DNA of 36,432 nucleotides from a virus. The DNA lies in IMG/VR virus record IMGVR_UViG_3300043419_000715, positions 1 to 36,432 of that record. The stretch is one strand, 5' to 3'. Below are positions 24,746-35,837 of the stretch, in pieces; the first letter of the stretch is position 1; each line of letters starts with the position of its first letter. The notes under the pieces are model-generated. The model searched no databases. It was not told the DNA's origin and saw nothing but the letters and a program-made list of their open reading frames with translations. The position numbers and the translations under genes are program-made.

Positions 24746-25723
24746 ATGAAACTAGCCAGCATCGAGGTCATCAAGGAGATCGCACCTCACTCCAACGCAG
24801 ACTCGCTCGAAATCGCCAAGGTTCTCGGATGGCAGATCATCGTCCGCAAGGGCGAGTTCAAGGCCGGTGAGTCCATCGTTTTCATCCCCATCGACACCAT
24901 CCTGCCCGACGCCGAGTGGTCGGCGTTCCTGAAGAAGGGAGACAAGCCGATTCGGCTCAACACCATCCGTCTGCGCGGCGAGTACAGTCAGGGGCTGATC
25001 CAGCCGCTCTCGATCCTGCCTGAGCACGTCCGTGGCTGGCAGGAGGGCGCTGACGTGGGCGGCGAACTGGGCATCAAGAAGTACGAGAAGGAGATCCCGG
25101 CGTGTCTGTCGGGTGAGGTGGCTGGAGGGTTCCCCATCCACATCGCCCCTAAGACCGACGAGGACAACGGCCTGAGCCATCCCGAGATCGTGAAGCACAC
25201 GCTCTCGAAGCCCTGCGTTGCCACGCTGAAGCTGGATGGTTCGTCCTGCACGATCGTCGTGAACGGCGGTCAGATCACCCACGTCTGCAGCCGCAATCTG
25301 TCGCTCAAGGAGTCCGATCGCAACGGGTTCTGGATCGCGGCGAGGAAGCTGAAGATACCCGAGAACGCCAACTGCGTCATCCAAGGCGAGTTGATGGGGC
25401 CGGGTGTGCAGGGGAACCAGTTGAAGCTCACTGAGCCTACGCTCGTCGTCTACCAGATCCGTGATCTCACCAATGGCAAATGGCTTCGATACATCGATAT
25501 GGCTCAGGTATGCCGAGACAAGTTCCAGTGCAAATGGGTGCCTGTGGTTACCGTTACTCTCGATGAAACCATCGAGCACCTGCAGAGCGTTGCCGACATC
25601 GTGACGCTGCCTGACGGCAAACCTGCCGAGGGAATCGTCGTTCGCCCAATCGATGGAGAGGCTATGGGCATCGGTCGCCCGCTTGGATTCAAGATCATCA
25701 ACCGCAACTACAAGGACCAGTAA
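24746..25723 (+). CDS. RNA ligase, DRB0094 (Deinococcus Rnl) type
   Basis: The 325-residue protein opens with an OB-fold-like domain (S-I-E-V-I-K-E-I-A-P-H-S-N-A-D-S-L-E-I, G-W-Q-I-I-V-R-K-G-E-F-K-A-G). A nucleotidyltransferase domain follows. The nucleophile motif is K-L-D-G at 162-165, and later motifs are present as E-G-I-V-V-R-P and F-K-I-I-N near the C terminus. This domain order, with the OB domain first, is that of the Deinococcus DRB0094 RNA ligase. Enzymes of that type seal 5'-phosphate/3'-OH nicks in which the 3'-OH strand is RNA. In phages, RNA ligases can repair RNAs cut by host defence nucleases. No polynucleotide kinase is visible. AGGA precedes the ATG. Confidence 0.85.
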   Translation: MKLASIEVIKEIAPHSNADSLEIAKVLGWQIIVRKGEFKAGESIVFIPIDTILPDAEWSAFLKKGDKPIRLNTIRLRGEYSQGLIQPLSILPEHVRGWQEGADVGGELGIKKYEKEIPACLSGEVAGGFPIHIAPKTDEDNGLSHPEIVKHTLSKPCVATLKLDGSSCTIVVNGGQITHVCSRNLSLKESDRNGFWIAARKLKIPENANCVIQGELMGPGVQGNQLKLTEPTLVVYQIRDLTNGKWLRYIDMAQVCRDKFQCKWVPVVTVTLDETIEHLQSVADIVTLPDGKPAEGIVVRPIDGEAMGIGRPLGFKIINRNYKDQ

Positions 25724-26593: not shown

Positions 26594-26937
26594 GTGCGTT
26601 GATATTGGAAGACATCGCTGAAACCGGAATTGTAGCGAAACCAAGCGTTGCGGTGGTCAGCGTAAAAACCAGCTACTACAGCACCAAGCGAGGGTTCGCC
26701 ACGACGAAGCGAATCGATTTCCTCAAACGCAAGAGCGACTGGGAGTGCGTCTACTCCATCAAAGAAGATGCATCCTTTTGCGGCGCCGATGCAGTCATTG
26801 GTCGAATAATCAACCTGAATGATGTCAAGGACGGAATTTACCGAATGATCTTCATCAACGAACACCGCGACTGGGATTCTGGACACATTGAGGACTGGGA
26901 CTACAAGTTGGTTCCGCATGAGGAGACCAAGCCGTGA
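26590..26937 (+). CDS. Small protein of unknown function
   Basis: The 115-residue protein starts at GTG, overlapping the previous stop (GTGA). It is mixed alpha/beta with a Trp-rich C terminus (E-H-R-D-W-D-S-G-H-I-E-D-W-D-Y-K-L-V). It is not recognised. It ends in K-P at the recurrent CCAAGCCGTGAGC-type junction. Confidence 0.6.
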   Translation: MSALILEDIAETGIVAKPSVAVVSVKTSYYSTKRGFATTKRIDFLKRKSDWECVYSIKEDASFCGADAVIGRIINLNDVKDGIYRMIFINEHRDWDSGHIEDWDYKLVPHEETKP

Positions 26938-27194
26938 GCATTGAAGAGCGAATCATAAAAGTAGTTGAAGAGCCGCTTGGTCTATGGGCGGTGCAGCGCA
27001 ACAAGCGCGAACTCCGCGCAATCGCTCTCGAAGTCCACAAGCTGGAGGACCGCATCAAGCGGCTGGAGGAGGCTGGGGATGCGATGCTGAACGCATGGTT
27101 GATGCCCGAAGACTCCATGGAGTATTGCGACTGGATTGCGTTGAGCGCAGACGCAAAAGCAAAGTGGCACAAAGCCAAGGAGGCCAAGCCGTGA
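26934..27194 (+). CDS. Small helical protein, cassette family
   Basis: The 86-residue protein starts at GTG. It has a coiled-coil middle (H-K-L-E-D-R-I-K-R-L-E-E) and the end H-K-A-K-E-A-K-P shared with the gene at 26162. The I-K-R-L-E-E coding segment is repeated exactly in the next gene (27329-27348). It is not recognised and is probably part of a recombining cassette array. Confidence 0.6.
   Translation: MSIEERIIKVVEEPLGLWAVQRNKRELRAIALEVHKLEDRIKRLEEAGDAMLNAWLMPEDSMEYCDWIALSADAKAKWHKAKEAKP
27051..27070 (+). repeat. Internal 20-bp direct repeat of the cassette genes, copy 1
   Basis: These 20 bases, which encode R-I-K-R-L-E-E, recur exactly at 27329-27348 in the next gene, in the same frame. 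A related sequence occurs near 26493. Shared linker DNA inside otherwise unrelated small genes points to recombination at the coiled-coil segment. Confidence 0.75.
27167..27189 (+). repeat. Direct repeat copy 2 at a gene junction (23 bp)
   Basis: This is an exact copy of 26566-26588, 601 bases away, at the end of the gene at 26934. Confidence 0.8.
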
Positions 27195-27460
27195 GCGAGG
27201 AACCTAGATGCCCTAGGTGCAATGCTCCATTCTGGTATTTGATTGGAGTTAACACGCGCAAGTTTGAGTGCGGATCATACACTCAGTTTCCGTCCATGGC
27301 TTGCAGGTACGCATCGCACCTTCAGGAGCGCATCAAGCGGCTGGAGGAATTCACTAACCGATTCTTAGATCCAGAGGATCTTGGATACGTCGTGAATAAC
27401 TACGTCCGCGATGATGCGCGTGAGGCTCTCGGGCGTGAACGAGTGGAGGCCAAGCCGTGA
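27191..27460 (+). CDS. Small zinc-ribbon-like protein, cassette family
   Basis: The 89-residue product is read from the GTG at 27191, which overlaps the previous stop, instead of an upstream ATG in the same frame. It begins with C-P-R-C and has two further Cys (F-E-C-G, M-A-C-R), so it may bind zinc. The coiled-coil I-K-R-L-E-E segment follows, and it ends in E-A-K-P. It is not recognised. Confidence 0.55.
   Translation: MSEEPRCPRCNAPFWYLIGVNTRKFECGSYTQFPSMACRYASHLQERIKRLEEFTNRFLDPEDLGYVVNNYVRDDAREALGRERVEAKP
27329..27348 (+). repeat. Internal 20-bp direct repeat of the cassette genes, copy 2
   Basis: This is an exact copy of 27051-27070, 278 bases away, in the same reading phase of a different gene. 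Confidence 0.75.
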
Positions 27461-27795
27461 GCACCCATGTGAATATTCCGCATGGATACGGCGAGGGTGT
27501 TGTCAACGGTCGCACCTACTGTTGGACATACAGCGAATGGCTTGGACCGCTGTTCCACAATAAGCACGGCGATGAGCTCAAGAGACAGCCGGGTCCGCGC
27601 AATCCAGTTTGGAGGCAGTTCGAGGCGTGGGAGATGGGGTATTACTGTGGCGAGGATCGTATCGATCGGCTGAGGAAGCGTGTGCAGGAGTTGGAGGCCG
27701 CGATCCTCAATACCCTGAACCAGCACCGCAACCTAGCTGACGGCACCGACTGCACCCTTGCCGACCTCAAGAAAGCGGTCCCTGATTGGACATGA
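27457..27795 (+). CDS. Small protein of unknown function, cassette family
   Basis: The 112-residue protein starts at GTG. It has an aromatic N-terminal half (Y-C-W-T-Y-S-E-W, W-E-M-G-Y-Y-C-G) and a helical C-terminal part (D-R-I-D-R-L-R-K-R-V-Q-E-L-E) of the same type as its neighbours. It is not recognised. Confidence 0.6.
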   Translation: MSTHVNIPHGYGEGVVNGRTYCWTYSEWLGPLFHNKHGDELKRQPGPRNPVWRQFEAWEMGYYCGEDRIDRLRKRVQELEAAILNTLNQHRNLADGTDCTLADLKKAVPDWT

Positions 27796-32430: not shown

Positions 32431-32957
32431 ATACCGGAGCGAGAGTCAAGCTGTCATGGTACGAGGCTGCCATAGGCTCGTACGTGGGAATGCTACGCCA
32501 GCTTGCATCGCTCAAACGAGGACTCCAGCAATGCGCCGGCCATGAGGGCGCATCCTGGAACGTCCATCTGGAGGGGGCCAGTGGCGAGATGGCCGTGGCC
32601 AAACACCTGAACGTCTACTGGGGAGGAGGAATCAACACCTTCAAGGACGACGACCTCCCGGGCCTCCAGATCAGGCTCAGAACCAGACACGACCACGACC
32701 TGATACTCCGAAGACAGGACTCGGAAAAGGCCATCTGGGTTCTCATCACCGGCACCTCCCCGGACTTCTGGATCAGAGGCTGGATCTACGGCCACGAGGC
32801 CAAGACACCGGAACGCCTCCAGAAGTACGGCAAGGATCGCTCAGAGGGCTACGTGATACCCGCGGAAGCCCTCCACCCTATCGAAACCCTCCCCGGCTAC
32901 CAGAAGAGCCAGAAGGCGGCTTCCTGCGATAGCCCTGAGCCCACAGATGCCGGGTGA
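32427..32957 (+). CDS. PD-(D/E)XK-like phage protein
   Basis: The 176-residue protein has L-E-G-A-S-G-E-M-A-V-A-K-H-L, then F-K-D-D-D-L-P-G-L-Q-I-R, and a W-V-L-I-T-G ... F-W-I-R-G-W-I-Y-G-H-E-A strand. A helix with Glu, then D and Q-x-R, resembles the restriction-endonuclease-like fold of small phage proteins, although the usual E-x-K is Q-I-R here. It may be inactive or use a variant active site. The final 80 bases overlap, in antisense, the end of the metallopeptidase gene on the minus strand. Confidence 0.55.
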   Translation: MNTGARVKLSWYEAAIGSYVGMLRQLASLKRGLQQCAGHEGASWNVHLEGASGEMAVAKHLNVYWGGGINTFKDDDLPGLQIRLRTRHDHDLILRRQDSEKAIWVLITGTSPDFWIRGWIYGHEAKTPERLQKYGKDRSEGYVIPAEALHPIETLPGYQKSQKAASCDSPEPTDAG

Positions 32958-33177
32958 GATAGTTCGCTGCCTGGATCACCTCCTTCTCCCTCCAGGCAGG
33001 CCTCATCAGATGCAGTAGCTCATGGATCAGCGTATCGAGCCTCTCGCTCTCGCACTGCTTGTCATGGATCTCGATCAGCCTCAGATCATCGTACGAGATC
33101 CCCCAGGCCTTATCCTTGCTGAGATCCTTCTCCACCACCTTCACTCTCACAGGATAGGGCATCCCCAAACAGAGCAT
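32878..33177 (-). CDS. Small HEXXH metallopeptidase-like protein
   Basis: The 99-residue protein contains T-L-I-H-E-L-L-H-L-M, a zinc-binding HExxH motif, in a small SprT-like or minigluzincin arrangement. The N terminus has a beta strand pair, and the end (N-Y-L-T-R-H-L-W-A-Q-G-Y-R-R-K) resembles that family's C-terminal helix. An ATG at codon 6 (33162) is an alternative start. It is the only minus-strand gene in the right half of the window and it overlaps the end of a plus-strand gene by 80 bases. This convergent overlap could give antisense control. Substrate and role are unknown. Confidence 0.7.
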   Translation of the reverse strand: MLCLGMPYPVRVKVVEKDLSKDKAWGISYDDLRLIEIHDKQCESERLDTLIHELLHLMRPAWREKEVIQAANYLTRHLWAQGYRRKPPSGSSGSRGGFR

Positions 33178-33206
33178 CCCACAGCACCGCTCTCAAGTGA
33201 AAATGC

Positions 33207-33235
33207 TTGACAGGTTTCGGGAAACCCCCTTTAAG
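33207..33235 (+). promoter_or_regulatory. Sigma-70-like promoter at the start of the non-coding region
   Basis: TTGACA (33207-33212), 17 bases, then TTTAAG (33230-33235). This is the usual spacing, unlike the 14-base spacing of the other sites, and TAAGAT is also present two bases later. The spacer holds GGTTT...AAACC, a small inverted repeat. Initiation would be near 33243, at the left end of the gene-free 1-kb stretch. Confidence 0.65.
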
Positions 33236-34055
33236 ATATCCCCCAGAAACCCTCGACCGTTTAGGACAGTGAAGGTCCGCGTCGATCCTCGACGGCCCTA
33301 GACGTCGAGGTAGTACATCCCCTACTGCTGCCCCGCATGCCAGGTGACCGGTTCGCTTAGCCGCTTCCAGCGGCGCGTGTGGGTGATTCTTTCAGCGGGA
33401 GCCCGGGTTCAAACGGGGTGATTTGGCCGAGAGTTGAGAAGGGGGGTACACCCATACCCTCACGACTTTATGCGCGAACCCCCGGTTACCCCCCCGGGGT
33501 GTGCGCATACGCGGGCACGCACGCACGCGCACGTCACGCACACACGCGGTATTCCCTCGCGTCGCACGCGTTCTTTCTATCGTTGGAAGGACTCCGGAAT
33601 TGGGGCCGACAATTCGGAGCAAAGATACGGGTTTCCTAGGGGTGTTGTCGGTTGTTCTTTCAATAAAACGGTTCGGCAAGGAGCGGAAACTCCAACGTCA
33701 ACAGGGCGTCACTATGACCCACGAGGAAGGCACCCGTGGTGAGTGTTATGTGGTCTGACAAGCAAGTCTAACGGCTTGCCCACACCCGGCGTTGGTTACC
33801 CATGCAAAAGACCTTGGGACGAACTAAAGGCCACCATGCGGCTAAATGCATGTGTTGTGCGTGACGATACCCAATCCACTTGGGGACTCGAATCTGCGCC
33901 ACCCCAGAGCAACGGTTGTGGACTCGAAGCGGGGTGGAGTGGCAGTCGACGGCGGGACGCAGCGTAAATGGCAGGAATCAATAGGCCATGGGTTACCGTA
34001 AAAAACCCCAACGCATCCTTGCCGTGCCCCAACTTTACCGGGGTACGGTCGACCA

Positions 34056-34090
34056 AAAACGGCGTGTCAGACGGTACGAAAAGCCGTTTT
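34056..34090 (+). terminator. Terminator-like hairpin inside the non-coding region
   Basis: AAAACGGC (34056-34063) pairs perfectly with GCCGTTTT (34083-34090) around a 19-base loop. The stem's last four bases on the 3' side are T. This may be a terminator of the large RNA, or part of its fold. Confidence 0.4.
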
Positions 34091-34243
34091 CATTCACCAC
34101 ACAAGCTGAACAGGGCACGGGGCAAGTTCTTCGGAACGGCGATTGCCACCCCGCTAGGTGCTAAGTGCCTAGCCTGCCAAGTAGGCTTGTGGAGTGAATG
34201 GATTCCCGGGTCAATTTCGATCCGGGCATCCACCACACTCCAC
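34091..34243 (+). promoter_or_regulatory. Switch-like RNA domain upstream of the gene at 34257
   Basis: CATTCACCACACAAGC (34091-34106) pairs with 34185-34200: 7 bp, a 2x2 internal loop, then 7 bp. It closes a domain with three hairpins: a GTTC-TTCG-GAAC hairpin inside a GCAA/TTGC stem, GCTAGG/CCTAGC, and GCCT/AGGC. Its 3' arm also pairs with downstream sequence: GTGGAGTG (34189-34196) with CACTCCAC (34236-34243), TGGAT with ATCCA (34199-34203, 34228-34232) and CCCGGGTC with GATCCGGG (34205-34212, 34219-34226). The two forms exclude each other. Confidence 0.6.
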
Positions 34244-34256
34244 AACTCCGAATCAA

Positions 34257-34646
34257 ATGACCCTCGCACTGTCTACCGTCACTGTCGAATCCAAGGCCGT
34301 CCGCTACGCCACCAACAAGTCTGGAGAAGGTGTCGTCATCGTCTCCCAGAAAGAGCTTGGCAAGATCACCGGCCTCAAGGGCTCAGCCCTGAAGAAAGCG
34401 CATTTCGAGTACCGTCTCGAAGCGGGCAAGGCCATGAACGCCGCCCTGTCCGCAGGAATGGCCTCCGGTGAGATTATCGGCCGGTCTGCGGTCCCCACCA
34501 AATCGGGCGACCTCAAGGTTATGTACTCCCGGGTTTCCAATCTCAAGGCTCCCGCCGAGAAGCCCCGCGTCGTGTCGCTGGCCCAGCAACTGGTTAACCG
34601 TGGCAAGTTTGCCACCTTGGCCGAGGCCGAGGCCTTCCTCGCCTGA
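34257..34646 (+). CDS. Small protein of unknown function downstream of the RNA region
   Basis: The 129-residue protein starts at ATG 34257; the longer frame from 34194 would run through the folded RNA. It is basic, with a beta-rich first third (L-S-T-V-T-V-E-S-K-A-V-R-Y), a helical centre and an E-A-E-A-F-L-A end. No family is recognised. There is no ribosome-binding site, so translation may depend on the structured leader. Confidence 0.6.
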   Translation: MTLALSTVTVESKAVRYATNKSGEGVVIVSQKELGKITGLKGSALKKAHFEYRLEAGKAMNAALSAGMASGEIIGRSAVPTKSGDLKVMYSRVSNLKAPAEKPRVVSLAQQLVNRGKFATLAEAEAFLA

Positions 34647-34713
34647 GCGGTCCCGGCCCATAGCTGAAGAGATCCCGGCCTTGTAGGGACGAAACGGGCT
34701 TCTGGCCCGTCCT
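34647..34713 (+). terminator. Intergenic hairpins between two small genes
   Basis: GTCCC (34650-34654) pairs with GGGAC (34686-34690), and ACGGGC (34694-34699) pairs with GCCCGT (34705-34710) across a five-base loop. No T-run follows. The structure may be an mRNA processing or stability element rather than a terminator. Confidence 0.4.
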
Positions 34714-34965
34714 ATGGTTATCTCTGAATCACCTGTCAGCATCGCCTCAAACAAGGCGTTCGTGTGTCGCGTAGTCCGCCACCTGTTTGAAGCCGCGTTT
34801 CATCTTGGTCTTGGATACGAGGATGAAATGGCTATTCAAATTGAAAGAAAGGCCCACGCCCTGTGGCGCGAGGCTGGCGAGACCGATATGCCCACACTCC
34901 GACTCTGGGAGCACGTCCAAGACGTGGTTCTTGGGTTGGAAGCCGGAACGATTGTCGCCAACTAA
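34714..34965 (+). CDS. Small helical protein of unknown function
   Basis: The 83-residue protein is helical, with acidic patches and two Trp. It is not recognised. It starts three bases after the hairpin at 34694-34710 and ends one base before the next start. Confidence 0.55.
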   Translation: MVISESPVSIASNKAFVCRVVRHLFEAAFHLGLGYEDEMAIQIERKAHALWREAGETDMPTLRLWEHVQDVVLGLEAGTIVAN

Positions 34966-35364: not shown

Positions 35365-35468
35365 TCGCAGAGTGACGGGCTTCGGCCCGGTAATGCGGCA
35401 CGCTGGTCACAAGCCCAGCGACGTTCCTCGTTCCGTTCCCGTCCGGTTGGCGGGTTTTCACTGTTCAC
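35365..35468 (+). other. Intergenic region with two hairpins before the endolysin gene
   Basis: CGGGC-TTCG-GCCCG (35376-35389) is a short, stable hairpin with a TTCG loop. A second inverted repeat (CGCTGG...CCAGCG) lies near 35410-35430. No T-run follows either. They may form mRNA-end structures. I see no promoter of the families found elsewhere in the window. Confidence 0.4.
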
Positions 35469-35837
35469 ATGAATCCCTACGCTCAATTGATTGCGGCCCT
35501 CATGGCCGTGGAAACCGGAGGCTATCGCAACCCTGACACCGTCACTGGCGACAAGGGCAAGGCGATCGGCGCTCTTCAGATCCACCGCGGTGTGGTCGAG
35601 GACGTCAACCGTCTCTCTGGCACCCACTACAGCTGGGCTGGAATGACCAACAGGGCCGACGCCCGCCGTGTGTGTGAGCTCTACCTGAAGCACTACGCCA
35701 AGGGCAAAAGCCCTGAAGAGGCCGCTCGCATTTGGAACGGCGGACCCAATGCAAACACCAAGTCTCGCCGCCACCTGACCGACGCCTACTGGGCCAAGGT
35801 CAACCGTCACCTGTCACCCGAACTCGCCAAGAACTAA
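35469..35837 (+). CDS. Endolysin, lysozyme-like/transglycosylase fold
   Basis: The 122-residue protein has the features of a minimal lysozyme-like muramidase or lytic transglycosylase. The catalytic Glu is at E15 (A-V-E-T-G-G), followed by G-A-L-Q-I and a C-terminal A-A-R-I-W-N-G-G-P-N. It degrades host peptidoglycan at lysis. No signal or anchor sequence is visible, so holin-dependent release is expected. It is far from the holin/spanin pair, at the other end of the window, but the two could be close on a circular map or on the full genome. Confidence 0.8.
   Translation: MNPYAQLIAALMAVETGGYRNPDTVTGDKGKAIGALQIHRGVVEDVNRLSGTHYSWAGMTNRADARRVCELYLKHYAKGKSPEEAARIWNGGPNANTKSRRHLTDAYWAKVNRHLSPELAKN

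Follow-up and report, generated by a model that had tools for sequence, protein, structure and literature searches.

The window analysed here, that is, the whole stretch of 36,432 nucleotides, represents a genome fragment (36.4 kb) from an uncultured tailed phage, IMG/VR record IMGVR_UViG_3300043419_000715, and genes for terminase, DnaB helicase and ThyX are recognised in it. Between a minus-strand ORF and a plus-strand ORF that begins with an ATG at 34257 lies a region of about 1.1 kb in which a preliminary description had found no credible gene. The features of the locus and of the sequence that follows it are:

32878-33177, minus strand: ORF with a weak match to M78 metallopeptidases, divergent, bordering the gene-free region upstream
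33178-34256, plus strand: gene-free region (probable large RNA) between the minus-strand ORF and the 129-aa ORF
33207-33237, plus strand: promoter-like element TTGACA-N19-TAAGAT (TTGACA 33207-33212, TAAGAT 33232-33237), putative function
33287-33310, plus strand: 5' hairpin with an invariant CCCUAG loop and compensatory stem changes
33429-33500, plus strand: most conserved primary motif, GAGAGUUGAGAAGGGGGGUAC, with a C-rich partner; the exact motif occurs in 14 IMG/VR stretches
33791-34094, plus strand: multi-helix central domain, type C1 (core 33855-33964), common to W, L014 and L005/L006
34119-34246, plus strand: 3' domain, type D1, common to W, L002 and L005/L006, ending 10 nt before the ORF
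34257-34646, plus strand: basic ORF of 129 aa and no known family; N-terminal domain about residues 1-106
34658-34717, plus strand: hammerhead-like ribozyme of type I topology (Rfam Hammerhead_1, 22.7 bits, gathering score 34, E 0.0095 in 1 kb)
34714-34965, plus strand: ORF of 83 aa whose AUG lies within stem I of the hammerhead
35366-35418, plus strand: Twister-P5 self-cleaving ribozyme (Rfam RF02684, 59.7 bits, gathering score 37.6)

W is the version in the window, and the remaining labels denote homologous loci. Two further observations were made in the window. At 34240-34260 and at neighbouring ORFs, several start codons have no Shine-Dalgarno sequence and are preceded by A/C-rich leaders (ACACAC..ATG in relatives), which points to a host with non-SD initiation. 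At 26921-27677, the near-repeats AGGAGCGCATCAAGCGGCTGGAGGA and AGGAGGCCAAGCCGTGAGC recur with a spacing of about 260-330 bases at successive small ORFs, with a match in L002, and they are possibly duplicated small genes.

The absence of a gene from the region is borne out by comparison with L014. Over the RNA region both versions are 76% identical, the substitutions per codon phase are flat (0.26/0.23/0.24, p=0.92), and 15 of the 17 indels have lengths not divisible by three. The adjacent ORF, treated identically, gives 0.21/0.16/0.42, an excess at third positions, and zero indels. Besides, no ORF conserved in position was found within the RNA region across the homologous versions. Flat codon phases and frame-breaking indels mean that the ORFs inside the region are there by chance and that the region is non-coding, so a protein-coding reading of 33178-34256 is ruled out. 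The homologues from related phages are likewise free of coding conservation.

Three queries against IMG/VR, namely the ORF downstream, the motif GAGTTGAGAAGGGGGGTA at 33431 and the peptidase upstream, recovered homologues from related uncultured phages; alignment A1 was too divergent to serve as a query, and two loci pulled in by the pattern GAACCCCGCTMTACCCC (L072 and L073) were chance matches. Seven independent full-length versions were obtained, W, L002, L003 (99% identical to L004), L005/L006, L013, L014/L017 and L028, together with partial versions (L007, L008/L012, L009, L011 and L018). All seven share a common architecture, in which a promoter-like element is followed by about 0.8-1.1 kb without genes and by a basic ORF of 127-139 aa, with a hammerhead-like ribozyme after the ORF in six of them. 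Outside IMG/VR, the annotated collections of GenBank phages and plasmids contained no relative of the region (a single 29-nt chance match), and the RNA motif had no match in the genome collection. The region was also not found in most of the 36 terminase relatives, which are mainly fragments. The sole terminase relative in the genome collection (L069, CAIRTT010000534.1, 81% identity) belongs to an Armatimonadetes MAG in which the RNA was looked for and not found; this match gives a clue to the host, though it may be an artefact of binning.

Homologous contigs reach 60-70 kb, and six of the 14 motif-bearing contigs end inside the RNA (L007, L008, L009, L011, L012 and L018), as expected if strains within one sample differ there. 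One contig of 69,965 bases ends in it with a 127-base overlap between its ends, and terminal overlap is the usual sign of a circular assembly. The breaks thus fit strain variation and not a physical end of the molecule, which suggests that the RNA spot is hypervariable at strain level in natural populations.

The 5' part begins with the promoter-like sequence that had been said to open the region, and this element is retained in each of the 12 distinct homologues aligned. A consensus promoter scan with spacers of 16-18 nt did not report it, its spacer being 19 nt. On this basis a transcript would be expected to start near 33244. The spacer (33213-33231) contains a dyad, GGTTTC..GAAACC, only partly conserved in relatives; 19-nt spacers with a dyad are seen in MerR-type regulated promoters. 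Downstream, the hairpin at 33287-33310 shows compensatory changes in six of the seven pairs counted, its stem being rewritten in L003, L002, L013 and L014, and 91% of its cells are paired versus 26-46% when the partners are slid (0 of 500 shuffles). The motif at 33429-33500 and its C-rich partner could form a long helix, GGGGGGUA/UACCCCCC, in which covariation is uninformative because the helix is invariant. Taken whole, the alignment of the 5' leader (block A) shows no sign of folding on the plus strand (z -0.7 to -1.0) although one hairpin covaries, so the 5' part is perhaps only partly structured. The base composition had been described as unusual; the C- and G-rich runs and the purine-pyrimidine alternation (about 33480-33570) are real in W, but the alternation is absent from L005/L006 and is therefore not an essential part of the RNA.

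Strong folding of the RNA, which had been proposed from the stems visible in one sequence, holds across the homologues. The plus strand of W folds with z -2.8 against chance and the seven versions with z -2.1 to -4.2 against dinucleotide shuffles, whereas four coding controls from the same phage range from +0.9 to -1.5. Alignments were compared with column-shuffled alignments on both strands. The central domain gives z -4.1 for W/L014 and, for W/L014/L005, -3.2 on the plus strand versus -1.0 on the minus strand; the corresponding values for the 3' domains are -8.0 and -5.4 for type D1 (W/L002) and -6.0 and -3.9 for type D2 (L003/L014), and the plus strands of coding controls give -0.6 to -1.7. 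The plus strand is the one favoured for folding.

In the central domain, compensatory change is found in 20 of 76 pairs, one-sided changes keep the pairing through G-U, and 92.5% of positions pair versus 38-43% with partners slid. The D1 domain is composed of the hairpins CUAGGUGC/GUGCCUAG and CCCGGGUC/GAUCCGGG, the latter nested inside a long helix, UUGUGGAGUG/CACUCCACAA; its 40 pairs show seven compensatory changes, three one-sided and none broken between W and L002. The G-T pairs noted earlier in the stems do occur in the consensus helices, and compensatory pairs are counted in three distinct regions of the RNA. This covariation is strong per helix yet shallow, since it comes from only seven independent sequences, and the few sequences used to score it also served to derive the structures. 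Altogether, the region is very probably a real structured RNA.

The versions differ from one another by whole blocks. Up to 33655, W and L003 show 89% identity; they are unrelated at 33655-34577 and return to 88% identity from 34578, so that the exchanged block extends beyond the RNA and ends inside the ORF. W and L014, members of one backbone clade, have a common central domain (up to about 34099, 76% nucleotide identity) and differ in the 3' domain and in the N-terminal domain of the ORF, and L014 has the same 3' domain as L003. Related to this, the covariance model of the central domain (R1) matches only W, L014 and L005/L006, its source sequences; it misses L002, L003, L013 and L028, whose central domains are therefore different modules. 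The patchwork of similarity and the restricted range of this model mean that RNA domains have been exchanged between phages, and the RNA is, as judged from these comparisons, a mosaic of exchangeable domains.

The exchange extends into the 129-aa ORF, whose N-terminal domain follows the type of the RNA 3' domain while its C-terminal tail follows the phage backbone. The 5' RNA and the C-terminal tail group the versions as W, L003 and L014; L002, L006 and L028; and L013 apart. On the other hand, the N-terminal domain and the 3' RNA domain, the latter assigned in the most divergent members from shared motifs and structure, group them as W, L002 and L006; L003, L014 and L028; and L013 apart. Backbone and module are seen in all four combinations, and the 3' domain and the N-terminal domain are separated in none of the seven versions. 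Between W and L003, the N-terminal domain is 25% identical and the C-terminal tail 91%. The N-terminal domain is basic (pI 10.1 in W, 9.8-10.8 in the others). Searches of Pfam, PHROGs and NCBIfam with the ORF gave no significant match; its AlphaFold model is a beta-hairpin/helical structure of moderate confidence (pLDDT 74.5), and a fold search with this model returned nothing significant, no RNA-binding fold being recognised. The 3' domain adjoins the N-terminal coding sequence and linkage alone could make them co-segregate; binding of one by the other is thus something that we infer.

In six of the seven loci the basic ORF is followed, after 12-28 nt (13 nt in W), by a hammerhead-like motif. 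In W, alignment and motif scan show the CUGANGA...GAAA core, three stems and a NUH cleavage site, with a single A bulged out of stem II; an extra or bulged base in this stem is also present in some of the others. The topology is type I in W, L003 and L014 and type III in L002, L005/L006 and L028, and this change of topology at a constant position speaks for the importance of cleavage at that point. The type III motifs have Rfam E values of 1e-6 to 1e-10, the best being L028 (45.4 of 48.5 bits, E 1.3e-10); all the matches are below the Rfam gathering score, for which reason they are called hammerhead-like. No hammerhead was found after the ORF of L013. In W, cleavage is predicted after C34711. 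Here, as in L003, the predicted cut falls two bases ahead of the start codon of the following ORF, which lies within stem I; in W it would leave the mRNA of the 83-aa ORF almost leaderless. The Twister-P5 ribozyme, also present in the L014 and L004 contigs, sits between a 61-aa ORF and a lytic-transglycosylase-like ORF (35469-35837).

Hammerheads flanking phage and prophage genes have been proposed to process long transcripts (PMC3088659), and the motifs described here are likewise predicted self-cleaving motifs between phage genes. In the parts of that report consulted, hammerheads are not described as adjoining a large structured RNA (PMC3088659). The present ones also differ from known phage hammerheads in that their place right after the ORF is conserved and their topology (I or III) is not. 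A viroid-like circular RNA made by paired ribozymes was considered and set aside, no ribozyme having been found upstream of the RNA. The window also encodes an ATP-dependent RNA ligase (24746-25723, plus strand; TIGR02306, DraRnl type, above the curated cut-off). It was considered as a partner of the ribozymes; its gene was found in the W clade only and not in contigs of the L002 clade.

Whether the RNA belongs to a described class was addressed with Infernal against Rfam. At E<=10, the stretch 32950-34400 gave only chance matches, and neither GOLLD, ROOL, OLE nor HEARO nor any other credible family; the whole window at the gathering threshold also gave no GOLLD, ROOL, OLE or HEARO, and the seven homologous loci at E<=0.5 no GOLLD or ROOL. 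No description of such an RNA was found in the literature searched (open-licence papers). Of the two options first considered, a new class or a divergent member of a known one, the former is preferred as far as sequence and structure models tell: non-coding, with conserved structure and no match to an Rfam model, the RNA is rated as a new class of large phage RNA within a known kind.

GOLLD and ROOL are the comparable large phage RNAs (PMC12286853). Like GOLLD, the RNA described here is phage-encoded, around 0.8-1 kb long and highly structured, with a conserved half and a variable half (PMC12286853); unlike it, the 5' half is the more conserved and the 3' half the variable one (the reverse of GOLLD), there is no Rfam match, no tRNAs lie nearby and the RNA is tied to a small protein gene. 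ROOL is also a large structured phage RNA whose function is not established, found near tRNA islands and with no known protein partner (PMC12286853), but here there is no Rfam match to ROOL and a small ORF is attached. In OLE, on the other hand, ole and oapA are almost always in tandem and OapA binds OLE RNA (PMC9723947). The likeness lies in a large RNA in tandem with a small-protein gene found only with it, with its own promoter and processing (PMC9723947). OLE differs in being bacterial, about 600 nt long and provided with a transmembrane partner, whereas the protein described here is basic, without recognised membrane or OapA features, and the RNA domains are exchanged. The RNA would thus seem closest to OLE/OapA in logic and to GOLLD and ROOL in look, and the Rfam models place it in none of these classes.

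The explanation that we favour, with roughly even chances of being right, is that the RNA and a cognate RNA-binding protein form a phage ribonucleoprotein, co-transcribed and ribozyme-trimmed in the manner of OLE/OapA. A plus-strand promoter near 33207 would drive a transcript running through the 129-aa ORF, the first 1 kb or so of which, from near 33244, would fold into the large RNA, and the small protein would be translated from the same transcript. The hammerhead probably cuts after the ORF, giving an RNA of about 1.45 kb that comprises the structured RNA and the ORF, and releasing the gene that follows. The N-terminal domain, which is basic, would most likely bind the 3' domain (D1 in W), and the C-terminal tail would link the ribonucleoprotein to something specific to the phage backbone. 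In favour of this are the seven independent loci with the same order of promoter, RNA and basic ORF, six of them with a hammerhead. Against it, the hammerheads score below gathering and L013 has none. A more specific form, put forward tentatively, is a type-specific code in an RNA of about 1 kb made of interchangeable domains. Its 3' domain would be recognised by the N-terminal domain of the co-transcribed protein, both moving between phages as a single specificity cassette and the remainder staying with the backbone, and the hammerhead would set the 3' end.

The distance of about 10-25 nt between the end of the 3' domain and the start codon also suits a translational leader. In that case the RNA would be a giant structured 5' leader, whose adjacent 3' domain is bound by the ORF product to repress or activate its own translation, and the hammerhead would uncouple the next genes. 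The last helix stops right in front of the ATG, there is no separate promoter, and the co-segregation of the 3' and N-terminal domains fits autoregulation equally well. Leaders of ribosomal protein genes provide an autoregulatory precedent, much smaller than the leader proposed here. However, the start-codon region is not consistently sequestered, with an unpaired probability of 0.30-0.94 just upstream of the ATG in the seven versions, and an RNA of about 1 kb with at least three separately exchangeable domains far exceeds the autoregulatory leaders known to us. Such a leader is therefore possible, if doubtful.

An unlikely alternative is an ornate RNA that acts alone in the manner of GOLLD and ROOL, an RNA-only assembly, such as the 14-mer nanocage that GOLLD forms, to which the ORF is merely adjacent. 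Its size, phage origin, elaborate domains and combination of a conserved and a variable half are those expected, with GOLLD and ROOL as comparable phage RNAs (PMC12286853), but Rfam gives no match to either, no tRNA was found in the window though both often lie near tRNA islands, and the co-segregation with the N-terminal domain of the ORF is strict. That the region is a DNA element, for instance an origin of replication or a packaging site, with single strands that fold by chance, is very improbable: its divergent intergenic position, repeats, G/C runs and the six of 14 contigs breaking inside it would suit such an element, but the plus strand is favoured in the three-way alignment (z -3.2 versus -1.0), one-sided changes preserve pairing through G-U, the promoter is conserved, the ORF and ribozymes are on the same strand, and the contig ending in the region has the 127-base end overlap typical of circular assembly.

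The ribozymes, the domain exchange and the link to the ORF are additions to the preliminary description. The number of large ornate RNAs described so far is, to our knowledge, very small, and the functions of most are not settled. A phage RNA class with its own candidate protein partner, in swappable matched types (D1 and D2), is a natural experiment, and a comparison of cognate with non-cognate binding would reveal directly whether such RNAs act as ribonucleoproteins, as proposed above. Large phage RNAs are moreover now linked with the proposed processing of phage transcripts by hammerhead and twister ribozymes.
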